A stretch of DNA of 64,000 bases from Polyangiaceae bacterium (GTDB lineage Bacteria; Myxococcota_A; Polyangia; Polyangiales; Polyangiaceae): the NCBI GenBank assembly GCA_020846005.1, contig JADLEQ010000103.1, positions 1 to 64,000 on the forward strand, written 5' to 3'. Position 1 is the first letter of the stretch; each line of letters starts with the position of its first letter. The notes below the pieces were generated by a model, which was given only the letters and a program-made list of their open reading frames with translations, was not told the DNA's origin and ran no database searches. Of the stretch, positions 28,815 through 50,610 are shown in pieces. Both the position numbers and the translations under genes were made by a program.

Positions 28815-30509
28815 TCATTCGTCGAGGAGCGCCGTCAGGGACCTGCCGGGCTCCGCCTTCACGAGGGTCGCCGCCAGCTCGAGCGCCTCGGGCATCAACC
28901 CCTGGACTTGGCTCACGACCTGCTCGACGACCAGCCGCGCCTCCTCATGGCTCGGCCCGCTCATCGCTACCGCGAACTTCAGCGGCGCGATGCGGCCGCC
29001 CGTCACCGGGACGATGCTGAGGAGCAACATCTCCGTGAGCTCGATGACGCGCTGGGCGGCGCGACGGAGCGCGAGCATCTCCAGGATCGTGGGGCGGTCG
29101 CTCACCTGGCGGTTCGGTCCGCGCACATGGTACCGGGCGACGGAGACCGTACCGTCGACCCACTCGGCGAAGGCGACGTCGTCCGTCACCGCGTGGAGGA
29201 GCTGTTCGCGATGCAGGAGCCCGGTGAGGCCGTCTCGGCGGGACAGATACTCGCGCGCCTTCGTGTGCTGGGGCGATCCCTCGTGAAAGCTCACGAGCTT
29301 GACCCGACACTCGCCGAGCTGGACCTCGGAGCCGTGCATCAGCGTCGCGCTCTTCTTTCGCTCGTAGCTATGATCGACGTAGGTGCCGTTCGTGCTGCCC
29401 GCGTCCTCGATGATCCAGGAGCCCCCGTGCCAGCGCGCCACGCCGTGCGCGCCGGAGACCGTCGCCTCGTTCAGGCAGATGTCCTGGTTGCTGCGCCGCC
29501 CGATCGTCATCAGCGGCTTGTCGAGTGAGAACATCCGACCCGCGAGCTCGGAGGCGTTGGACGCGAACGTCACCAGCAGCGCCTGCGCGCCCGGCGCGAA
29601 GCTCTCCGCGACCGCGCGCCCGACCGGCGGCCCGGGCGCGAGGCGCTCGCGCGGGATCTGGAGCTGGTTCGTCGTGAGCGCCGACGGGTTGAAGAACCGC
29701 ATGTGGCGCGCCTGCGGTCGCAGACTCGCGTCGTCGCTCAGGCAGCGGAAGATCTGCTTGACCTCGTCGTGGGACAACCCGGACGGGACGTCGAACATGA
29801 TCTGCGATCGCATCGGCTTCGCCCGGGGCCGGTACCCGGGCTCCGGGACCCGACACGTCCACATCTCCCAGAGCGTGAGCCCGAGCGCGTACATGTCGTC
29901 TTCCATGCTCGCGCCGCCGGAGCGGAGCCGCTCGGGCGCCATGTAATTGGGCGTCCCGCCGTCCGGCGGCGCGCCGGGACGCCGCGCGCTCAGCCGCGCG
30001 CGCTCCTGGGCGAAGCCGAAATCGAGGATCACGGCGCGATCCGCGGTCACCATCACGTTGCCGGGCTTGAGGTCACCGTGGACGAGCCCCTGGGCGTGGA
30101 TGGCCGCGAGCCCGGCGCACGCCTCGCTGGCGATCTTCCTGAATTCGTCCGCGGTGTAGCCGCCCTGCGCCTTGCGCCGCCGGATGTGGGTGTGGAGCGT
30201 CTGGCCGGCGATCTGCTCCATCACCAGGATGGGCCCGAAGGCGCTCGGCGCGAGATCGTGGACCCGGCATACGTTCGGGTGGCTGACGGACCGCGCGAGC
30301 AGGAGCTCCTGGCGGAGCGCCTCGTCGTCGCCGGGCATGCGCGACTCCTCGCGCACGACCTTGAGCGCGACCGGCTGCTGCGTGCTCCGGTCGTAGGCGA
30401 GGAAGACCTCGCCCATCCCACCCTTGCCGAGGCTCTGACGGATCTCGTAGCGGTCGTTGACGACCGCTCCCTGGGCGAGCGGGGCCGAGTTGCGTGGCGG
30501 GTGCGCCAT
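28815..30509 (-). CDS. Ser/Thr kinase fused to FHA and degenerate GGDEF-like domains
   Basis: 564-aa cytoplasmic protein with three parts. Kinase (about 20-275): GKGGMGEV, Lys50 in VALKVV, HGDLKPGN at 144-151 and DFGFAQ from Asp163. The usual HRD is HGD, making it a non-RD kinase that should not need activation-loop Arg pairing. FHA domain (about 310-408): GRRSNQDICL, SGAHGVARW and IIEDAGSTNGTYVD, which binds phosphothreonine. C-terminal region (about 420-555) opens RRDGLTGLLHREQLLHAV, the start of a GGDEF domain, but no GG[DE]EF active loop follows (GGRIAPLKF instead). Inference: a kinase that docks on its own or partner phosphosites. No membrane segment. Confidence 0.85.
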   Translation of the reverse strand: MAHPPRNSAPLAQGAVVNDRYEIRQSLGKGGMGEVFLAYDRSTQQPVALKVVREESRMPGDDEALRQELLLARSVSHPNVCRVHDLAPSAFGPILVMEQIAGQTLHTHIRRRKAQGGYTADEFRKIASEACAGLAAIHAQGLVHGDLKPGNVMVTADRAVILDFGFAQERARLSARRPGAPPDGGTPNYMAPERLRSGGASMEDDMYALGLTLWEMWTCRVPEPGYRPRAKPMRSQIMFDVPSGLSHDEVKQIFRCLSDDASLRPQARHMRFFNPSALTTNQLQIPRERLAPGPPVGRAVAESFAPGAQALLVTFASNASELAGRMFSLDKPLMTIGRRSNQDICLNEATVSGAHGVARWHGGSWIIEDAGSTNGTYVDHSYERKKSATLMHGSEVQLGECRVKLVSFHEGSPQHTKAREYLSRRDGLTGLLHREQLLHAVTDDVAFAEWVDGTVSVARYHVRGPNRQVSDRPTILEMLALRRAAQRVIELTEMLLLSIVPVTGGRIAPLKFAVAMSGPSHEEARLVVEQVVSQVQGLMPEALELAATLVKAEPGRSLTALLDE

Positions 30510-30689
30510 GAGGGGTCGAGCTCTAGAAGAGGTCCGCGCCGAACCGGGTCGTGCGGCCCGCGCGCGCGCGGCGAACCCGGCGCACGGGCGGCCAGTCTCG
30601 CCGAATTGCGGCCAGCCGACAACGCTCGGCCGCAGCCGTCCGTTCCCGCCGCATCATTTCCACAGGAACGTAGCCTTGCGGCCGGCGAC

Positions 30690-30895
30690 GGCTCCTGGTA
30701 CGGGAGCCCCGCGGGCCGATGGCTCGCCGGCGCGCTCGACGCCAAGGGAAGCCGGTGTGAGACCGGCGCGGCCCCCGCCACTGTAACCGGGGACGAGATC
30801 GGGAAGAGCCACTGGATCGCGGTCGTCCTTCGGGGCGGCGGATCTGGGAAGGACCCGGTCGAGGACGATCCGGAAGCCAGGAGACCTGTCGAGCG
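30690..30895 (+). promoter_or_regulatory. Cobalamin riboswitch (copy 1)
   Basis: Clear adenosylcobalamin-type aptamer. The core GGGAAGCCGGTGTGAGACC begins at 30747, followed by the conserved CCCCGCCACTGTAA (to 30786), AGAGCCACTGG (about 30805), and a near-consensus B12 box AGCCAGGAGACCTG at 30875-30888. It lies on the + strand 120-130 bp ahead of the lipoprotein gene at 31019, which has no transporter beside it. The 5' boundary is approximate. Confidence 0.93.
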
Positions 30896-31018
30896 CTCCG
30901 ACCACGCAGACCCGCGGGGTGTCGGGCGCGTGGAGGTCGAGCCGCCGGCTCGCTTCCGCGCTCCACGTCTGCCCCGTGGGGATGCCCTCGCCCGCGGGGT
31001 GCGGGAACGGAGTGAGAC

Positions 31019-32512
31019 ATGAACAGGAAGTACGATCGTTCGTTGCTGGTGGTGGTGGGCGCGCTCGCGGTCGCGGGGTGCACCGAGGACGAGCCCGTCG
31101 GGGGCGGAGGTGTGACGGGGGGCCGGGCCGGGAGCGACGCCGGTGTGGGCGGGGGTGCGAGCGGGAGCGGGGGAACGAGCGGGGGCGGAGGCGCGAGCGG
31201 GGGCGGAGGCGCGAGCGGGGGCGGAGGCGCGAGCGGGAGCGGAGGCGCGAGCGGGAGCGGGGGCGGAGGCGCGAGCGGGAGCGGGGGTGCGAGCGGGAGC
31301 GGAGGCGGGGGTGCGAGCGGGAGCGGCGGCGGAGGCGCGAGCGGGAGCGCGGGCGGGAGCGGGGGCGGGAGCGGTGCGAGCGGCGCGGACGCCGGGGCCG
31401 ACGCGGCCACCGACGGCGCCGCCGGCGCGGCAGGAGACGGCGGCGCGTCGAAGCGAGCGCTCGTCGTCGGCACCGACTACTGGTCGATGGCGGAGGTGGC
31501 GACCATCGATCTCGCGACGGGCGCCGTGCTGGGGCGGATAACGCTCTCGGACCAGGACTCGGTGCCGGTGGCGAGCGGCGGCGTGGGTGGTGTGCTCGAG
31601 CGCACCCTGGGCGCGCTCGTGCTCTTCACGCCGGCCGGAGCCGTCGATCGGACCATCGCCCTCGCGCCTGGGGACGCTGGCGGTTCGCCCGTCAACCCGC
31701 GCGGCTTCGTGGTGGCGCCGTCCGGCCTCAAGGCGTGGGTGCCGCTCTACGGTCGCGCCGAGATCGCAGTCGTCGACCTGGCGGCCGGTACGGTAGCGTC
31801 GACCATCGACCTCTCGGGGCTGATGGCGTCGGGCGACACCGACGGCGGCATCGAGGTGGGCACGCCGCTCCTCGCCGGCGGCAAGCTCTGGGTGACGCTC
31901 GGCCGCACCGATCTCACGACCATCCTCCCGCCGAGCTACGAGCTGCCGTGCTCGGCGTCACCGTCGCTGCTGGTCGCGATCGATCCCGCCACCGACACCG
32001 TGCTCGCGCCGACCACCGGCATCGAGCTCGGCGTGGTGAGCCCGTCCGCGCTCGAGTCCGACGGGACGAACCTCTACGTGCTCGGGCCCGGGTGCTTCGA
32101 GCCCGCGGACGGCGGCACGGCGCGCGCTCGCCACGGCATCGACCAGATCGCCCTCGGCTCCGGCGCGGTGACCGCCGTCTTCCGGCCCGCGTCGCCCGAC
32201 TACTTGAACGGGCTGCTCGTGGTCTCCACCACCGAAGGCTTCGTGCAGAGCTTCGACTCGTTCTTCATGACGCAGTGGAGCCGGTGGCCGCTCGGCGCCG
32301 CCGCCCTGGGTGCGTCGCTCGCCGAGATCCCGGACGGCGCCGCGACCGACGGCGACGGCGCCCTGATCGGCGTCCGCTCGGTGCCCGGCGACGGCGGCTC
32401 CTCGCGCGAGGTCGTGCGCTACGACGTGGCCAGCGGCAACGTCGGCGTCGTGGCGAGCGAGCCCTGGACGAGCGGCGTCGGGTTCGTGGGAGGCGTCGCG
32501 GTCGTCCGCTGA
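31019..32512 (+). CDS. Riboswitch-controlled YVTN-like beta-propeller lipoprotein
   Basis: 497-aa lipoprotein: the signal ends LAVAGC with Cys21 lipidated. A long Gly/Ser/Ala linker (about 33-130) separates the anchor from a beta-propeller made of YVTN-type blades (EVATIDLATGAVLGRITL, EIAVVDLAAGTVASTIDL, LLVAIDPATDTVL) to the C-terminus. The ATG at 31019 is preceded by GGAGTGAG. A cobalamin riboswitch controls it, so it is expected to be made when B12 is scarce. In Bacteroidetes the surface propeller lipoprotein BtuG captures B12 for BtuB; this gene has the same fold and regulation but no sequence identity I can claim. A B12-capture role is inference; a second propeller lies at 42498-43745. 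Confidence 0.85.
   Translation: MNRKYDRSLLVVVGALAVAGCTEDEPVGGGGVTGGRAGSDAGVGGGASGSGGTSGGGGASGGGGASGGGGASGSGGASGSGGGGASGSGGASGSGGGGASGSGGGGASGSAGGSGGGSGASGADAGADAATDGAAGAAGDGGASKRALVVGTDYWSMAEVATIDLATGAVLGRITLSDQDSVPVASGGVGGVLERTLGALVLFTPAGAVDRTIALAPGDAGGSPVNPRGFVVAPSGLKAWVPLYGRAEIAVVDLAAGTVASTIDLSGLMASGDTDGGIEVGTPLLAGGKLWVTLGRTDLTTILPPSYELPCSASPSLLVAIDPATDTVLAPTTGIELGVVSPSALESDGTNLYVLGPGCFEPADGGTARARHGIDQIALGSGAVTAVFRPASPDYLNGLLVVSTTEGFVQSFDSFFMTQWSRWPLGAAALGASLAEIPDGAATDGDGALIGVRSVPGDGGSSREVVRYDVASGNVGVVASEPWTSGVGFVGGVAVVR
31148..31383. repeat. Gly/Ser/Ala-coding degenerate tandem repeat
   Basis: About 235 bp of GAGCGGGGGCGGAGGCGC-type units repeated with small variations inside the lipoprotein gene at 31019. 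It encodes the flexible linker between the lipid anchor and the propeller. Such repeats vary in length between strains by slippage, so linker length may be polymorphic. Confidence 0.85.
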
Positions 32513-32526
32513 CGCGGGCCCCCGCG
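32513..32526. terminator. Short hairpin between convergent genes
   Basis: CGCGGG at 32513-32518 pairs with CCCGCG at 32521-32526 over a two-base gap, directly after the stop of the propeller lipoprotein gene and before the stop of the leftward channel gene. The stem is short and the loop tight, with no T-run, so confidence is low. Confidence 0.3.
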
Positions 32527-32547
32527 ACCGAGCCGTGGCCGGCGCGC

Positions 32548-33597
32548 TCAGCCGAGCGTGCCGGCCGGCAGTCGCTCGTGACCGATCGTGACCACGGAGT
32601 CGCCCGCGACCACGAGCTCCTCGGCCTTCAGGTTGAGGCGCGGGCCCCGCGAGCTCCGGATCCCGACCGCGAGGTGTCCGTGCTTGGCGCACGCCTCGGC
32701 CACCACCTTGAACGGAGCCTCGCCGCGCTCCCACCGCGTGAGGTAGAGCTGCTCCCCGCCGAGGTTGCTCGTGAGATCCTCGATCACCTCCTGGACGCCG
32801 GGGTTCAGCAGCTCATGCGAGAGGAAGTGGGCGTCGAAGCGGGAGGTGCACACCACCGAGTCGCACCCCGCCTTCTTGAGCAGGCCCTCCACGCTGAAGT
32901 CGACGCACTCGACCACGGTGTGGACGGCGCGATCGGCCAGCGACTCGATGGCGAGGGTGATCGCGAGGTTGAGGTTGTCCGAGTGCGGGTCTCCCGGCTG
33001 CCGCGCGAGCACGATCGCGTACTTCGCCTGCGCCACCGCGGCGCGCGCCAGCGTCTCGTCGCGCGTGGGGTTGCCACGGACGTACCGCACGTGGCGGCGC
33101 GCCAGCTCGGGGGGCAGCTCCTCCAAGTCCTCGTCGACCAGCAGCACGACCCGCCCCTGGAACGTCGGATCGCCGGCGAGTTCGTCGAGCAGGCGCTCCA
33201 CCTTGGCGAGGCTCGGGAAGTTGAAGATGACGAGGTGGTCGGTGAGCTTGTGTTCGGTCATCCCGCGGAGCTCCTTCGTCCTGGCCTGGACCAGCGCGCT
33301 GGCCGCCAGGGACAGCACATAGCCGAGCAGCCCGATGCCGAAGAACCCCATGGGCACGGCGACCAGGAACCGCCCCCCGGAGCTGGACGGGAAGTAGTCC
33401 CCGTAGCCGATCGTCGTCATCGTGACGAACGCCCACCAGATCGAGTCGAGCCAGCTCAGCTCGGGCTTGCCGGGGAGCTCGAAGTAGAGGTAGCCGGTCG
33501 ACCCGTACGCGAGCAGCGCGACGACGAGCACGATGACGCGCATCGGTGCGGGAGGGCGCACCACGACGACGCGCATCCAGTGGAAGACGACGTTCAT
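32548..33597 (-). CDS. Two-TM potassium channel with RCK domain (Kch/MthK-like)
   Basis: 349-aa K+ channel subunit. Seen: two membrane spans flanking the pore helix and selectivity filter TMTTIGYGDYFP (TIGYGD, a functional variant of TVGYGD), then a cytoplasmic RCK pair: TrkA-N Rossmann (about 115-235, HLVIFNFPSLAKVERLLDEL) and TrkA-C (about 260-345). In MthK-like channels the RCK ring gates the pore through Ca, nucleotides or other ligands. The ATG at 33597 is chosen because it overlaps the upstream gene stop by ATGA; six residues further upstream is another possible start. Coupled to an SNase-like gene. Confidence 0.9.
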   Translation of the reverse strand: MNVVFHWMRVVVVRPPAPMRVIVLVVALLAYGSTGYLYFELPGKPELSWLDSIWWAFVTMTTIGYGDYFPSSSGGRFLVAVPMGFFGIGLLGYVLSLAASALVQARTKELRGMTEHKLTDHLVIFNFPSLAKVERLLDELAGDPTFQGRVVLLVDEDLEELPPELARRHVRYVRGNPTRDETLARAAVAQAKYAIVLARQPGDPHSDNLNLAITLAIESLADRAVHTVVECVDFSVEGLLKKAGCDSVVCTSRFDAHFLSHELLNPGVQEVIEDLTSNLGGEQLYLTRWERGEAPFKVVAEACAKHGHLAVGIRSSRGPRLNLKAEELVVAGDSVVTIGHERLPAGTLG

Positions 33598-34172
33598 TTC
33601 GCCTGCCTCCGCCACTCCTGCCCGAGCAGGCGCGCCCGCTCGGCGACGGCCTCGTCCCCCCAGATCCCCTTCTGCTTGCCCTGCGCCGCCTCCTGCTCGG
33701 CCAGGTACATGGACATCGAAGGGAACGGGTAGACGGTATACACGAGGGCGAGCCCGGCCTTGACGAGGTCGAAGCCCACGTCGTGGTCATCCACGTAGAG
33801 GGTGGCCAGGGTGCGGCCGTGCTTGTCCTGCGCGGGCGTCCCGAGGAGCACCCGGATCGGTTGGTCTTTGCACGCCTTCTCCAGCGCGTCCCGCGCCGCC
33901 TGCCCCCAACGCGCGGTGGGATCGCGCACGGGCTGGGTGTTGAACGCCTTGATCCCGATGATCCGCACCGCGACCGTCTCGCCGGACTCCTTGCGGACGG
34001 TGATGGTGTCGGCGTCCAGGATGCGCTCGAGCGTCACGATCTCGCCCGTCTCGAGCGCGGCCTCGCTCTTCTGTGCCTCGCGCCGCCGCGCCTCGGCGCC
34101 CATCCCGAAGAAGCCGGCCGCGCCCAGCATCGCGACGACCACGATCCAGAACCCGACCGTCGAGCGTTCCAT
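33594..34172 (-). CDS. Membrane-anchored staphylococcal-nuclease-like protein, probably inactive
   Basis: 192-aa protein: an N-terminal span (FWIVVVAMLGAAGFFGMG) followed by an SNase-fold OB domain from about residue 45 (VTLERILDADTITVRKESGETV, then VRIIGIKAFNTQP and KHGRTLATLYVDD). The family uses Asp21, Asp40, Arg35, Glu43 and Arg87 (Staphylococcus numbering) in the motif RL.GIDTPE. Here RIIGIKAFNT keeps the Arg but lacks the second Asp and the Pro-Glu, so nuclease activity is doubtful. The later GR of DKHGRTLA matches the Arg87 region. It overlaps the K+ channel gene by ATGA and may serve as its external partner (inference). Confidence 0.75.
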   Translation of the reverse strand: MERSTVGFWIVVVAMLGAAGFFGMGAEARRREAQKSEAALETGEIVTLERILDADTITVRKESGETVAVRIIGIKAFNTQPVRDPTARWGQAARDALEKACKDQPIRVLLGTPAQDKHGRTLATLYVDDHDVGFDLVKAGLALVYTVYPFPSMSMYLAEQEAAQGKQKGIWGDEAVAERARLLGQEWRRQAK

Positions 34173-39384: not shown

Positions 39385-39855
39385 CTACGCGCGGACGAGC
39401 TGGGCCAGGTAGTGCTCGCGGCCGAGATCGCCGGCCAGCGACGCCTGCGTCTCCAGCCAGTCGATCGCGCCCTCCTCGTCGGCGAGGATCTTCTCGAGCA
39501 GCTCTCGCGTACCCGCGTCCCCCGTCTCGAGGCAGAGTCGGATGCCGGCGCGGAGGCGCTCGACCGCCTCGCGCTCGAGCGCGAGGTCGACCTGGTTCAT
39601 CTCGAGCGGGTTCTCGCCGACACGCACCGGGAACAGGCGCTGCATGTTGGGGACGCCATCCAGGAAGAGGATGCGGTCGATCACGGCGTCGGCGTGCCGC
39701 ATCTCCTCGAGCGACTCCTCGCGCTTCTTCTTGGCGAGCCCCCCGTACCCCTGGTTCGCGCACAGCTTGAAGTGCACGAAGTACTGGTTGATGGCCGTGA
39801 GCTCGCTCGAGAGCACCTCGTTCAGATGCTCGATCACCTGGGGATCTCCACGCAT
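39385..39855 (-). CDS. bfr: Bacterioferritin
   Basis: Iron-storage haem ferritin subunit of 156 aa that forms a 24-mer shell. Seen: VIEHLNEVLSSELTAINQY with ligand Glu18, EEMRHADAVID with Glu51 and His54 and the haem ligand Met52, Glu94, and EEGAIDWLE with Glu127. Position 130, His in active bacterioferritins (EEGHIDWLE), is Ala here, so one diiron ferroxidase ligand is missing. Heteromeric bacterioferritins with one deficient subunit are known in Neisseria and pseudomonads. The ATG at 39855 gives the normal length; earlier starts add only Arg/Gly sequence. It is divergent from bfd, and a Fur-like box lies between them. Confidence 0.95.
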   Translation of the reverse strand: MRGDPQVIEHLNEVLSSELTAINQYFVHFKLCANQGYGGLAKKKREESLEEMRHADAVIDRILFLDGVPNMQRLFPVRVGENPLEMNQVDLALEREAVERLRAGIRLCLETGDAGTRELLEKILADEEGAIDWLETQASLAGDLGREHYLAQLVRA

Positions 39856-39950
39856 GCGCGGTGAATGGGGCCGGCGGCGCCGCGTGGCAACCCGGCCGCC
39901 GGCGGCGCCGCCGCGGCCTGCCCCGCCGATCGGCCGCCGAGAAAACGACA

Positions 39951-39978
39951 TTGACAATCACTTTCAGTAAGCTACGCT
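39951..39978 (+). promoter_or_regulatory. Sigma-70-like promoter for bfd
   Basis: TTGACA at 39951-39956 is a perfect -35, followed after 16 bp by TACGCT (39973-39978) as -10. Transcription would start near 39985, only a few bases before the bfd ATG at 39988, so the mRNA would be nearly leaderless. The -35 and spacer overlap the Fur-like box. Confidence 0.5.
39952..39966. promoter_or_regulatory. Fur-like operator between bfr and bfd
   Basis: TGACAATCACTTTCA; read on the other strand it is TGAAAGTGATTGTCA, matching the 7-1-7 Fur core TGATAATGATTATCA at 12 of 15 positions. It lies between divergent iron-storage and ferredoxin genes and overlaps the bfd promoter, as expected for iron-responsive repression. 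Confidence 0.6.
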
Positions 39979-39987
39979 GCCTGGAGC

Positions 39988-40215
39988 ATGATCGTCTGCC
40001 ACTGCCGAGGCGTGACCGACCGAGCCATCCAGGAGGCGGTGCGTGGCGGCGCGCGAGGGCTCGCGGAGGTGACGGCTCGCTGTGGCGCTGGGGGCCGTTG
40101 CGGGGGCTGCCGCCCGCTGGTCGAGCTGGTCGTGCGCCTCGAGCTCGAGGCGTCGGGTCGGGCCGAGGCGGCTCCGGCTGCGGCGCTCGCCGCGCGCGTC
40201 GCCGCCGCGAGTTGA
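39988..40215 (+). CDS. bfd: Bacterioferritin-associated ferredoxin
   Basis: Small [2Fe-2S] protein that reduces bacterioferritin core iron so it can be released. Seen: the BFD signature C4-x-C6, then C38-x2-C41 (MIVCHCRGVTDRAIQEAV and GGRCGGCRPLV), with an extra Cys32. The 75-aa product is slightly longer than the E. coli 64 aa because of an Ala-rich tail. It is divergent from bfr and shares the intergenic Fur-like box. Confidence 0.93.
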   Translation: MIVCHCRGVTDRAIQEAVRGGARGLAEVTARCGAGGRCGGCRPLVELVVRLELEASGRAEAAPAAALAARVAAAS

Positions 40216-40239: not shown

Positions 40240-40425
40240 TCGCCCCGACAACTTCGAGTGACAGGTCCCGCACGGGGAAGCTCGGTGTGATGCCGACGCG
40301 GTCCCGCCGCCGTGAGCGAGGACGAAACCGGCGAGAGAGCCACTGGGCAACGCCCGCGCGAGCCGCGGGCGCCCTGGGAAGGCGCCGGGAGTAGGACGAT
40401 CCGCAAGCCGGAATACCCGCCGGGA
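40240..40425 (+). promoter_or_regulatory. Cobalamin riboswitch (copy 2)
   Basis: Second B12 aptamer, immediately after bfd. GGGGAAGCTCGGTGTGATG begins at 40274, followed by GTCCCGCCGCCGTGAG, AGAGCCACTGGGC (about 40336) and the B12 box AGCCGGAATACCCGCC at 40406-40421. It ends some 16-20 bases before the ATG of a BtuB-like receptor gene, close enough to mask its ribosome site (GGAG near 40429). The 5' end is approximate. Confidence 0.92.
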
Positions 40426-40440
40426 CCGGAGCGGACGCCC

Positions 40441-42501
40441 ATGCCGGTCGAGCACGGTGGTGTACAGCGGAGATCTCGCGCGATGGGCGCGGCGACGATG
40501 GTGGTCGGCTTGGCCGCCCTCGCCCGCGTCGCGCGTTCCGAGCCGGCGCCCGCCGAGGGCGCGGCCACTGAGCACGAGATCGAGGTCGTGGCGGATCGGG
40601 CGCACCGCGTCGAGCCCTCGCCGCGGGACCCGACGGCAGCGTCGACGGTCGTCTCGGGGCCGCGGCTCCGCGAGCCCGGCGTGACGCTCGCGGCGGTCGC
40701 CGCGCGCGTGCCCGGCGTGCAGATCGCCCGCGCGGGCTCTCCCGCCGACGGCGCGGCGCTCGGCCTCCGGGGCGCTCCGGCCGCCGAGACCCCCGTCTAC
40801 CTGGCGGGCGTGCGCCTGGACGACGATCTGACGGGCGCGACCGACCTCTCGACGGTACCCCCCTTCCTACTCGACCGCGTCGAGCTCTTCAGGGGTACCG
40901 CGCCCGACGCCGCCGATCGCCTCGGGATGGGAGGCGCCGTCCTGCTCGAGCCGCGGCGTCCGCGCCGCAGCGAGGCGAGCGTGGGCGCCGAGCTCGGGAG
41001 CCACGGCGCGCGCGCGGCCTGGGCCCACGCCGCGCTGGCGCGCGAGGACGGGGCAGGCGCGCTGGTGGCCGCGCACTACGACGCCGCGCGCAACGACTAC
41101 CCTTACGAGGACGACGGCGGCACCGCCTTCGATCCTTCCGACGACCGGGAGCGGCGCCGGAGCAACGCCGACCACGCCGGCACGGATCTGTGGCTCGTCG
41201 CCCGGACGGGCGGCGCCGGGGCGCGCGCGCTCACCGTGTTCGAGGCGTACGACCGCGAGCGCGGCGCGTCGGGGCTCGCGCTCGTCCCCGCGACGCGCGC
41301 GCGCTACCGCATCGATCGCCGCCTCGTCGCCGTGACGGGCGCCGCGCCCTGCGCCCGCGCAGCCCCCGGAGGCGACGCGCCGTGCACGCTCGAGCTCACG
41401 ACGAGCGCGCTCGCGGCCTCCAGCGAGCTGCTCGACCCGGCGCGCGAGCTCGGTCTGCTCGGCACGCGGCTCGACGTCCGCGGCGCCCGCGTCGGCTGGC
41501 GCGCCCGGCTGGAGACGGCGCCGACGCCCGCGTGGCGGTTCGTCCAGGACCTGTCGCGCGAGCACGCGACGCTGGCGGTCGACCGCGACGGCGCGCGCGA
41601 CCTCGCCGCGCGGAGCGAGGTCGTGCGAGGCAGCGCGGCCGCGCATCACCGCGGGACCGGGCGTACGGACGTCCTCGCGCTCGGGGCGCTCGAGTGCCAT
41701 CGCGCGGCGGTCGGGGCGGCGCTCGGCGCGTGCGATCCGCTGGAGCCCGTCGGGCGCGTCGGGATCCGCTGGCGCGTGGCGGAGACGGTGAGCCTGCTGG
41801 CGAACGGCGGCCGCTTCGCGCGGGCGCCGACGCTGGGCGAGCGGTACGGGTCGTCACCGCTCGTGCGCGGTAACGCTGCGCTCCGCCCGGAGCGCAGCCT
41901 CAACACCGACGCGGGCGTACGTCTCGCGGTGCCGGCGGCGGAGTCGGGGCGGCGGCTCGCGCTGTCCGCCGAGGTGGTCGCATTTGCGCGCTGGGCGGAC
42001 GACCTCATCGCGTATCGCCGCACGGGCTTCGGCACCGTCCGCCCGTACAACGTTGGGCGCGCGAGGCTCGTCGGCGGCGAGGGACTGGTCGTGGCGTCGC
42101 TCTTCGACGCGGTCGCCGCGGAGAGCAGCCTCACGCTCCTCGATCCGCGCGACACGAGCCCCGGCCGCGCGCTCACCAACGATCTCCTGCCGCACCGGTC
42201 GCGACTCGTCTTCGCGCAGGCCCTCGAGGCGTGGCTGCGCGCGCCCCTCCCGGGGGTGGATCGCGTGTCCGCGGGCGCCCGCCTGCTCCACCGATCGTCC
42301 AGGTTCGCGGACGAGGCGGGGCTGGTCGTGCTCGCCGCGGGCACGACGCTCGACTGCTTTGGAGCGCTGAGCCTCGCGGGCGACCGATTCGTCGTGCGGG
42401 CCGCGGTCGACGACGTGCTCGACGCGCACCCCCCGGATCTGCTCGGCCTCCCGCTCCCGGGGCGGACGGCCCACGGGAGCGTCGAGGTGACGCTGCCATG
42501 A
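40441..42501 (+). CDS. btuB: TonB-dependent receptor, BtuB-like (cobalamin uptake)
   Basis: Outer-membrane receptor of 686 aa that would import B12 using TonB energy. Seen: a signal peptide, a short N-terminal segment, then the plug domain (TAASTVVSGPRLREPGVTLA, VPGVQIARAGSPADGAALGL, VYLAGVRLDDD, LDRVELFRGTAPDAADRLGM) and a 22-strand barrel with FVQDLSREHATLAVD, GIRWRVAETVSLLANGGRFA, APTLGERYG and LRPERSLNTDAGVRL, the last two being TonB-receptor hallmarks. The ATG at 40441 follows the riboswitch; upstream in-frame codons lie inside the aptamer. B12 specificity rests on the riboswitch, not on substrate residues I can name. It overlaps the next gene by ATGA. Confidence 0.88.
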   Translation: MPVEHGGVQRRSRAMGAATMVVGLAALARVARSEPAPAEGAATEHEIEVVADRAHRVEPSPRDPTAASTVVSGPRLREPGVTLAAVAARVPGVQIARAGSPADGAALGLRGAPAAETPVYLAGVRLDDDLTGATDLSTVPPFLLDRVELFRGTAPDAADRLGMGGAVLLEPRRPRRSEASVGAELGSHGARAAWAHAALAREDGAGALVAAHYDAARNDYPYEDDGGTAFDPSDDRERRRSNADHAGTDLWLVARTGGAGARALTVFEAYDRERGASGLALVPATRARYRIDRRLVAVTGAAPCARAAPGGDAPCTLELTTSALAASSELLDPARELGLLGTRLDVRGARVGWRARLETAPTPAWRFVQDLSREHATLAVDRDGARDLAARSEVVRGSAAAHHRGTGRTDVLALGALECHRAAVGAALGACDPLEPVGRVGIRWRVAETVSLLANGGRFARAPTLGERYGSSPLVRGNAALRPERSLNTDAGVRLAVPAAESGRRLALSAEVVAFARWADDLIAYRRTGFGTVRPYNVGRARLVGGEGLVVASLFDAVAAESSLTLLDPRDTSPGRALTNDLLPHRSRLVFAQALEAWLRAPLPGVDRVSAGARLLHRSSRFADEAGLVVLAAGTTLDCFGALSLAGDRFVVRAAVDDVLDAHPPDLLGLPLPGRTAHGSVEVTLP

Positions 42502-43745
42502 GCCGCCGGCGTGCTGATCGCGCCGCGGCGCTCGGGGCGCTCGCGCTGGCTGCCTGCGACGTGCGAGCGCTCGACCCGGGGCGGTCGCCCGTGGACGCCG
42601 GAGGCGACGGCGCGTGCGGCCGCGGCGTGGCGGTGATCTCGATCGGCGACGACTACCAGTCCGCGAACGTGAGCGCCCTCGGCGTGGACGGCGCCGTGCT
42701 CTCCGGCTCGTTGCTCTCCTCAGCGAGCCGACCGCCGGGGCTCGTGGCGCCGCTCGGGGGCGACGCGGTGCTGCCGTCCCTGCCCCAGCGCGGCGGTCGG
42801 ATCGCGGTGATCGACCGCTACCCGAGCGGGGTCGTCACCTGGATCGATCTGGCGACCGCCAGCGTCCCGGCGCAGCTCGACGTCCGCACCGGGTTTACCT
42901 CGAACCCGCACGATCTCGTGGAGGTGGCGCAGGGCAAGGCGTACGTCACGAGGTACGAGCGCAACCACCGGGCGGGGCGCGAGCCGCACGACGCCGGGGA
43001 CGATCTGCTGATCGTCGACCCCTCGGTCCCGCGCGTCCTCGGGCGTGTGGATCTCGTGCCGGCGATGGCTGGGCGCGAGCCGTTCCTCCCCCGACCGGAT
43101 CGAGCCGTCCTCGCCGGCGGACGCGTGCTCGTCGTCCTCGCAGGGTACACGGCCGACTTCGCCGACGCGGCCGACGGCCGGGTGGTCGCGATCGATCCGG
43201 CCACCGACTCGATCGACGAGGTCCTCGTGCTCCCGGGGCTTCGGGGGTGCGCAGGCGCCGCCGTCTCCCCGACCGGGGCCGAGATCGCGGTGTCGTGCCC
43301 GGGGCTGCTCCTCTCGGACTCGCTCGACGACTCGGCGATCGTCCGCGTCCGCGTCGAACCGCCGCTCACCGAGATCGCGCGCTACCCCGCGAGCACGCTC
43401 GGGGCCGGCAAGGTCGGGTTCCGCGCGGCCTACGCCTCGGGCGGGCTGCTGCTCACAGCGGTGTTCGGACGCGAGGCCTCCCCCGCCGCTCCGGCGCTCG
43501 AGGACTCCCTGGTCGAGCTCGACCTCGGCGGCGGGACGGCGCGCGAGCTCCTGCGCTCGAGCGGCGCGCCGTTCACGCTCGGGGATCCGGTGTGTCTCGA
43601 CGCGTGCGGCGTCTGCTTCGCCCCGGACGCCGGGCGCCGCGTCGTGCACCGGCTCGCCGTCGGGGAGGCGACGGTCGACTCGCCCGTGCCGCTGCCGGTG
43701 GAGGAGGCGCTCGGCCTCCGGCCGCGCCAGCTGGGTGCGCTCTAG
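42498..43745 (+). CDS. Beta-propeller lipoprotein coupled to btuB
   Basis: 415-aa lipoprotein: signal ALGALALAAC with Cys20, then a short linker and a YVTN-like propeller (VAVISIGDDYQSANVSALG, VVTWIDLATASVPAQLDV, LIVDPSVPRVLGRVDLVP, VVAIDPATDSIDEVLVL) with several Cys near the end (CLDACGVCFAPDAG). The ATG at 42498 overlaps the btuB stop, so it is co-translated under the same cobalamin riboswitch. By fold, anchor and coupling it parallels Bacteroidetes BtuG, the surface lipoprotein that hands B12 to BtuB. This is analogy, not shown homology. It shares design with the riboswitch-controlled propeller at 31019. Confidence 0.85.
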   Translation: MSRRRADRAAALGALALAACDVRALDPGRSPVDAGGDGACGRGVAVISIGDDYQSANVSALGVDGAVLSGSLLSSASRPPGLVAPLGGDAVLPSLPQRGGRIAVIDRYPSGVVTWIDLATASVPAQLDVRTGFTSNPHDLVEVAQGKAYVTRYERNHRAGREPHDAGDDLLIVDPSVPRVLGRVDLVPAMAGREPFLPRPDRAVLAGGRVLVVLAGYTADFADAADGRVVAIDPATDSIDEVLVLPGLRGCAGAAVSPTGAEIAVSCPGLLLSDSLDDSAIVRVRVEPPLTEIARYPASTLGAGKVGFRAAYASGGLLLTAVFGREASPAAPALEDSLVELDLGGGTARELLRSSGAPFTLGDPVCLDACGVCFAPDAGRRVVHRLAVGEATVDSPVPLPVEEALGLRPRQLGAL

Positions 43746-49381: not shown

Positions 49382-50488
49382 TCAGCCCGGCGCGAAGCCG
49401 TACCGATCGCTCGCTGCGGGGCCGGGCAGCGCGTCGCGCGCGAGGAGCACCGCCCGCACCGTCCACAGCTCGCCGAAGATGCGGTGGCGCGCCGTCTGGT
49501 CGAGGTAGTCGACCCCGCTCGAGCCGCCGGTCCCCACCCGGCGGCCGATGACGCGCTCCACCATCCGCGCGTGGCGCGTGCGCCACAGCACCAGCTGCTC
49601 CTCGAGCTCGACGACGGTGTCGAGCAGTAGCCTGGGCCACGCGAGCAGGGGCAGCTCACGGTAGGACTCGATGAACAGCGCGCCCGCCCGGACGCGTCGC
49701 GCTCGCGGGCGTGCCGCGTCGTCGACGTCGCGCGCCTCCAGGAAGTCCCGCGCCGCGTCGGTGCTCGCCTCGAGCTGACGCGCCAGCGCCGCCGGGTCCG
49801 TGGCGAGCACCGCGGTGAGCCGCGCGAGCTTCTCGGCGTGTCCCGCTCGCAGGCGCGCGAGGTAGTCCGCGAGGAACCGCTCGACGACCCCTTCGTCCCC
49901 GGGATCCCCCGGGCTCGAGCCGTGGATCGGCGTCCGGTGCAGCCAGTCGTGCAGCGCGGCGCGCAGCGTCCGCTCGCCTCGCACCGCCTGGAGGCGCTCG
50001 CGGGCGAGGCGGCCCGCGGGCGTGTCGCCCGCCAGCTTCTCGATATGATCGAGCGGGTTGGAGCCGGCGTACGCCGCGCGCTGGGCCTCCTCGAGACCGA
50101 GCAGGATCTCGAGCTCGCGCATCTGAAACGACTGGAACCCGCTCGCGGGGACCAGCTTGTCCCGGAACGCGAGGAAGTCCTGCGGCGTGAGCGTCTCCAT
50201 GACCCGGAACGCGTCGATCGTGTGCTCCAGGATCGTGCCGCCGCGCCGGAGGTGGTGCACGACGAACGGGACGTGCTCCTCCGGCACCCGCGGCTCCGCG
50301 AGGTGATCCCGCGCGAGGCGGAGCTCGGAGAGCAGCAGCTTGAACCAGAGCTCGAACGTCTGGTGGACGAGCACGAAGTGCAGCTCGTCCGGTAGTAGCT
50401 TCGACTCGTCGCGCTCGAGGCCGCCTTGCAGCGAGAGCAGGGCGTCGAGCTGGAGGTAGTCCCAGTACGTGGGGGGCGGCTGGATCAT
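49382..50488 (-). CDS. kynA: Tryptophan 2,3-dioxygenase
   Basis: Haem enzyme opening the indole ring of L-tryptophan to N-formylkynurenine, first step of the kynurenine pathway. Seen: TYWDYLQLDALLSLQ, HFVLVHQTFELWFKLLLSEL (distal substrate pocket), SGFQSFQMRELEILLG, the haem-ligand His in LWRTRHARMVERVIG, and GTGGSSGVDYLDQT. The 368-aa length is above the bacterial norm (~280) owing to insertions after about residue 180. The ATG at 50488 gives MIQPPPTYWDY; earlier codons lie in intergenic sequence. It is divergent from an aldehyde dehydrogenase. No other kyn gene is in the window. Confidence 0.95.
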   Translation of the reverse strand: MIQPPPTYWDYLQLDALLSLQGGLERDESKLLPDELHFVLVHQTFELWFKLLLSELRLARDHLAEPRVPEEHVPFVVHHLRRGGTILEHTIDAFRVMETLTPQDFLAFRDKLVPASGFQSFQMRELEILLGLEEAQRAAYAGSNPLDHIEKLAGDTPAGRLARERLQAVRGERTLRAALHDWLHRTPIHGSSPGDPGDEGVVERFLADYLARLRAGHAEKLARLTAVLATDPAALARQLEASTDAARDFLEARDVDDAARPRARRVRAGALFIESYRELPLLAWPRLLLDTVVELEEQLVLWRTRHARMVERVIGRRVGTGGSSGVDYLDQTARHRIFGELWTVRAVLLARDALPGPAASDRYGFAPG

Positions 50489-50610
50489 GGTGGTCCGGCG
50501 GGCTCCGCGGTGGAGCGCGACACGCCCCGGGATAGGGCAGGCGTCGCGCGCCGGCAACCGGACGCCGGCGTTCGGCGGGGAGGCGAGGCGGGCGTGGTAG
50601 ACCACCCGCC

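Follow-up and report, generated by a model that had tools for sequence, protein, structure and literature searches.

A propeller lipoprotein led by a cobalamin riboswitch in a Polyangiaceae bacterium: a probable BtuG-like protein of B12 capture

We have analyzed a cobalamin riboswitch and the gene that follows it in a 64,000-nucleotide stretch of DNA (the window) from a Polyangiaceae bacterium, a soil-type organism and kin of the myxobacteria. Riboswitch 1 occupies positions 30720-30907 of the forward strand, forming the leader of the gene for a solitary propeller lipoprotein (lipoprotein 1). The original prediction had called the aptamer near consensus, and this is borne out by comparison with Rfam family RF00174. 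The match scores 90.1 bits (E = 5.8e-21) against a gathering score of 31.5 bits, and it extends over the whole aptamer (model positions 1-189 of 189). There are 112 nt between the riboswitch and the gene (ATG at 31019), and this interval contains a strong GC-rich hairpin without a U-run (30911-30980, forward strand). The segment 30900-31050 is calculated to fold with −81.2 kcal/mol (z = −2.97), and for the whole leader z = −1.33. No terminator-like site was found in 30500-32700. On the basis of the calculated folding, the hairpin is a possible expression platform.

The gene (31019-32512 from ATG to stop, forward strand) encodes 497 amino acids. It begins with a signal peptide and the lipobox LAVAGC, where the lipidated residue is Cys21 (codon 31079-31081). 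A Gly/Ser/Ala-rich tether of 117 residues (31079-31429) starts at this cysteine; 85% of its residues are G, S or A, and it is encoded by tandem repeats (31147-31374) with units of 18, 24, 36 and 42 bp. The remaining ~360 residues (31430-32509), which have a net charge of −18, are predicted to form a beta-propeller domain, as judged from an AlphaFold2 model and from Foldseek and VIA-align. The flanking genes encode a Ser/Thr kinase with an FHA domain and a K+ channel. Since both the upstream (28815-30509) and the downstream (32548-33615) neighbor lie on the opposite strand, the lipoprotein 1 gene is solitary. Thus the only gene that the riboswitch can control is indeed a lipoprotein with a Gly/Ser linker and a propeller, as had been predicted. 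Among Pfam and NCBIfam profiles, no enzyme family matches the domain above its cut-off, and the NCBIfam profiles, YncE included, give zero matches to lipoprotein 1 at E = 1.

It had also been stated that no transporter is adjacent. This is correct for the immediate neighbors, but it does not hold for the window as a whole, where a second cobalamin riboswitch is followed by the genes for a TonB-dependent receptor and a further propeller lipoprotein. The original prediction was sound in what it observed, but it missed this B12 receptor locus and the connection to BtuG that is discussed below. Riboswitch 2 (40275-40417, forward strand; RF00174, 58.8 bits, E = 5.2e-12) sits 9.4 kb beyond riboswitch 1, and is the leader of a receptor-propeller operon. 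The Rfam match leaves out its P1 helix, which on reading the sequence consists of 7 bp, with GGTCCCG (40264-40270) pairing with CGGGACC (40421-40427). The receptor gene (40483-42501, forward strand) lies ~8 kb downstream of the lipoprotein 1 gene. Its product is a TonB-dependent plug and barrel (Pfam Plug and TonB_dep_Rec) that we term BtuB-like; its nearest solved relatives are BtuB B12 transporters, which make up 9 of its 11 solved-structure matches. As an equivalog it falls short by a wide margin, scoring 77.6 bits with TIGR01779 (TonB-B12) where the cut-off is 599.7. The translated gene for lipoprotein 2 (42498-43745, forward strand) starts within an overlap with the receptor stop. Its lipidated residue, assigned by eye, is Cys20, and the tether is short, with 32 residues to a DYxS motif when counted by hand. 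Just before riboswitch 2, at 39385-40215, there is a bacterioferritin and ferredoxin pair, in which a ferritin-like gene (minus strand) and a BFD-like [2Fe-2S] gene (plus strand) are arranged divergently.

The two propellers of the window are homologous. Pairwise BLASTP of lipoproteins 1 and 2 gives only E = 0.009, and comparison of their family profiles by hhalign gives 99.2% probability (E = 3e-19 over 289 columns). For this, profile A1 was made from 26 of the 30 copies of family 1, to which lipoprotein 1 belongs, and profile A2 from 25 sequences of family 2. When 53 rows were placed in a tree, directly switched propellers fell mostly apart from receptor-linked ones: the label changes numbered 9 and 3, and shuffling gave 18.0 and 13.3. 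Support for the midpoint split of the tree is weak (66/66), and riboswitch linkage is retained across distinct subclades.

In the members that could be read, family 1 has longer and less even tethers than family 2. Lengths from the cysteine to the first motif were taken only from members in which the motif was right by eye, as automatic measurement misread several. For family 2 they range from 24 to 37 residues with a median of 29 (16 of 25 members readable). In family 1 the values are 26, 62, 67, 67, 70, 79, 86 and 131 residues (8 of 26 members readable with confidence). The original prediction proposed that the long linker may reach beyond the surface layer; linker length and composition differ widely among the homologues. 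We also observed that many family-1 members have acidic residues right after the lipidated cysteine (CTED, CGDD, CSDD), an example being 31079-31090 in the window, and that these are scarce in family 2. They bring to mind the surface-export signal of Bacteroidetes.

We examined the occurrence of both families in 97 genomes, comprising that of the host and relatives from the same family and order. Family 1 is present in 24 genomes as 30 copies, all of them acidic (charge −3 to −34, some copies being partial). Family 2 is present in 61 genomes, with 64 copies counted after exclusion of the row G021:C1:3277038 (E = 6.9e-4), which is a family-1 gene. Both families occur in 15 of the 24 family-1 genomes. 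The original prediction had proposed a check on whether homologues follow cobalamin riboswitches, and we therefore searched for these in all 24. For 19 of the 30 copies, in 19 of the 24 genomes, a cobalamin riboswitch lies on the same strand and no more than 1 kb upstream, where chance would give 0.004. In view of this shared arrangement, we reject a chance neighborhood of the lipoprotein 1 gene and its riboswitch.

No riboswitch was mapped for the other 11 copies. These include tandem copies (four in G034, and one in G021 whose neighbor has a riboswitch), a G013 copy cut by the contig end, a copy in G044, which has no riboswitch anywhere in its genome, the copies G021:904752 and G059:4079676, and weak matches in G079 and G012. 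The four tandem genes of G034 (contig C133, 4943-10734) lie on an 11-kb contig without a riboswitch. For family 2, 46 of the 64 copies are behind a cobalamin riboswitch, at a distance of up to 1 kb in 12 copies, of 1-4.5 kb in 33 and of slightly more than 4.5 kb in one; the other 18 have none. A relative of the window receptor is directly upstream in 23 of the 30 family-2 loci, out of 64, that this count covers.

On extending the A1 search to the phylum, matches were found in 167 of 377 genomes, although many are weak and probably represent generic propellers. A riboswitch is upstream in 18 of 25 further rows of this search. We also considered a linkage to generic propellers only, and rejected it: no riboswitch is upstream of any of 11 weaker paralogues picked by hand in riboswitch-mapped genomes, a set that is not a blind control and that shares two members (G011:C28 and G056) with the 25 rows. 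Four other weak rows do have an upstream riboswitch (G410, G269, G155 and G222:C5).

The gene order in relatives is informative. In G021 and G059 the riboswitch is followed by receptor, propeller 2, FecCD permease, ABC ATPase and Peripla_BP_2 binding protein, and each of these operons is adjoined by a family-1 gene. Both permeases have BtuC as best NCBIfam match, and both binding proteins have BtuF in second rank, in each case below the equivalog cut-off. One of the ATPases has the corrinoid ABC ATPase as best match and the other a heme ABC ATPase, again below cut-offs. In G062 a single strand carries riboswitch, propeller 1, a small LIC_13355-like lipoprotein, receptor and propeller 2. TonB-B12 is ranked first for the receptor relatives in G021 and G062. 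On this comparison of gene order, an association of the propellers with B12 uptake is well supported.

The window propeller 1 domain was modeled by AlphaFold2 together with three homologues. The result is a beta-propeller with pLDDT 71.3 and pTM 0.78, resting on 4 sequences and with residues 256-297 poorly placed. Of the first 11 PDB rows from Foldseek, 10 are BtuG, with modest TM-scores of 0.26-0.54 by either length. VIA-align places BtuG first to sixth (Z = 21.6-21.1), followed by an archaeal YVTN propeller and lactonases (Z = 21.0-20.9); by the tool's own margin this lead is a tie. The best fold match of propeller 1 is therefore to BtuG1-3 of Bacteroides thetaiotaomicron (PDB 3DSM, 8BMX, 8BAI and 8OKV), tied with generic propellers. 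When profile A1 was compared with PDB sequences the best match was 1L0Q (E = 2.3e-11), and BtuG entries gave only E = 0.09 and worse. In fold and repeat type propeller 1 is like the YncE/YVTN propellers (1L0Q, 3VGZ), for which we know of no riboswitch or receptor linkage.

According to one report, PF16819 (DUF5074) is the family used for propellers of such loci (PMC13398666). At E = 1 it has no match in window propeller 1 or 2, and its best E-values are 0.098 among the 26 family-1 members and 0.28 among the 25 family-2 members. We therefore reject propeller 1 as a formal member of BtuG, and the best reading is that it would work like BtuG while not belonging to it by the profile test. The PF16819 matches in the 97 genomes lie elsewhere than in these families, except for a trace at the family-2 gene of G007 (E = 0.82). 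One of the matches, in G068 (contig C993, 1363-2601), is a YVTN propeller lipoprotein that exceeds the PF16819 cut-off with 31.7 bits and lies 239 bp behind a cobalamin riboswitch. It is possibly a nearer BtuG relative in the same order.

How far does the likeness to BtuG go? In BtuG2 the negative face of the propeller is the B12-binding side, the net charge is −18e, and the protein serves as a lid for BtuB2 (PMC10404256). Propeller 1 likewise is a lipoprotein by its signal, a predicted beta-propeller, acidic (−18) and in a B12-riboswitch locus, and has a paralogue encoded beside a BtuB-type receptor. A position beside btuB in a riboswitch locus is seen for propeller 2, and for the propeller 1 homologue in G062. 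Unlike BtuG, the window propeller 1 is ~8 kb from the receptor and family-1 genes are often solitary; it has a long Gly/Ser tether, shares 13-15% identity over the structural alignment, and comes from a phylum other than Bacteroidetes. It also resembles BtuH and BtuJ (DUF4465), accessory B12-binding lipoproteins of the surface; encoded as additional members of riboswitch-controlled loci, they capture B12 for BtuB/BtuG. BtuJ has a jelly-roll fold (PMC13398666) where we find a propeller. DUF4465 has been reported from Myxococcota too, a phylum that the accessible part of that report names for DUF4465 only (PMC13398666).

Because the window tether of propeller 2 and those readable in its family are short and even, as would suit a lid, and those of family 1 are longer and uneven, we infer that propeller 2 is a BtuG-like lid; propeller 1 would be a free catcher, with a role nearer to that of BtuH. 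Lipoprotein 1 probably catches B12, like a protein known from gut Bacteroides, since time and again its relatives are found behind a riboswitch of this kind or next to B12 transporters. The suggestion in the original prediction of a B12 scavenger or carrier is therefore well supported by sequence comparison, with homologues found behind riboswitches and, in two genomes, flanked by a BtuB-like receptor on one side and btuC/D/F-like genes on the other. Taking everything together, we think it likely that lipoprotein 1 is a BtuG-like outer-membrane lipoprotein of B12 capture that feeds import via a BtuB-like receptor, and that it is repressed by its riboswitch alongside the riboswitch 2 unit. On the outer face of the cell, its propeller would capture corrinoids in the manner of BtuG, and the captured B12 would be handed over to the receptor encoded ~8 kb downstream and imported. 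In a B12-replete cell, B12 would bind the riboswitch and the lipoprotein 1 gene would be shut off; when B12 is short, lipoprotein 1 would be made together with the receptor and short-tethered propeller 2. Against BtuG-like capture we have counted the PF16819 mismatch, the structural tie, the 11 copies lacking a riboswitch, and the position of the receptor below the BtuB cut-offs.

Propeller 1 might instead bind a related ligand (free cobalt, a siderophore or heme), with the B12 switch reflecting pathway overlap. Its structural matches include XusB, the siderophore-binding propeller lipoprotein of Bacteroides (Z = 18.2), and among NCBIfam models the window receptor scores highest with that of the myxochelin receptor MxcH (88.8 bits, under the MxcH cut-off). 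However, XusB scores lower than BtuG (Z = 21.6), and the solved matches of the receptor are mostly BtuB and not siderophore receptors. Moreover the receptor relatives in G021 and G062 rank TonB-B12 first, and the cobalamin riboswitch has been retained in many lineages. A related ligand thus seems unlikely.

A role outside uptake is another alternative. Stand-in enzymes that do not depend on B12 are also found under cobalamin riboswitches, and lipoprotein 1 could be a B12-repressed surface or envelope protein (an adhesin, a signaling protein or a stand-in) that is needed only at low B12. Its gene is solitary in the window, and an opposite-strand gene comes next in at least eight other riboswitch-led loci. 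Yet the domain matches no enzyme family above cut-off, the G062 homologue shares its single riboswitch and strand with receptor and propeller 2, and the family-2 paralogue is receptor-linked in 23 of 30 loci. We consider such a role quite unlikely. An ordinary YVTN/YncE-type propeller lipoprotein placed behind the riboswitch by accident is very improbable, for while A1 matches occur in 167 of 377 genomes of the phylum, many weakly, and generic folds score nearly equal to BtuG, 19 of 30 copies have the riboswitch where 0.004 is expected, and the linkage persists across distinct subclades.

In the host genome (5.7 Mb, 99% complete), riboswitches 1 and 2 are the only ones above the cut-off. A third, weak and shortened cobalamin riboswitch on contig C42 scores 24.1 bits, under the cut-off. 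Encoded downstream of it are a lipoprotein that resembles members of the LIC_13355 family (43.3 bits against a cut-off of 120) and a periplasmic binding protein whose best NCBIfam match is BtuF (segment L003, 586-1431 and 2-1030, minus strand). The small lipoprotein is 52% identical to that of the G062 operon and, from this resemblance, may be a further B12-binding component. There is one FecCD permease match, behind a gene read by eye as an ATPase. The genome encodes the B12-dependent methionine synthase MetH, and neither cobI nor cbiL was detected above cut-off, so the organism probably has to import corrinoids.

Earlier work treats lipoprotein-assisted B12 capture as a speciality of the Bacteroidetes linked to competition in the gut (PMC6143338, PMC10404256), and BtuG was reported as exclusive to that phylum on the basis of a BlastP search at 1e-10 of 313 gut genomes (PMC6143338). 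Among openly accessible published papers, we found nothing linking such propellers to cobalamin riboswitches outside the Bacteroidetes, nor any account of them in Myxococcota. If the propellers described here bind B12, the strategy of capture by lipoproteins is widespread in a second phylum, in a form not picked up by the BtuG profile; surveys based on known families would therefore undercount corrinoid users. The cobalamin riboswitch offers a ready-made marker by which such proteins can be found. The solitary, long-tethered form raises the question of how ligand is transferred from a free catcher to the receptor. More tentatively, Myxococcota might possess a two-tier extracellular capture of B12 built from one propeller fold. 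A lid on a short fixed tether (~29 residues) would cover the BtuB-like receptor. Another propeller, under a switch of its own and on a long tether encoded by repeats, would range freely, fish for corrinoids and pass them to the lid. Myxococcota are rich in predators, and the corrinoids might perhaps come from lysed prey or neighbors. The propellers could then belong to a deeply diverged BtuG branch, or the same solution could have arisen a second time outside the Bacteroidetes. Elsewhere in the window, a tryptophan 2,3-dioxygenase gene is located at 49382-50605 on the minus strand.
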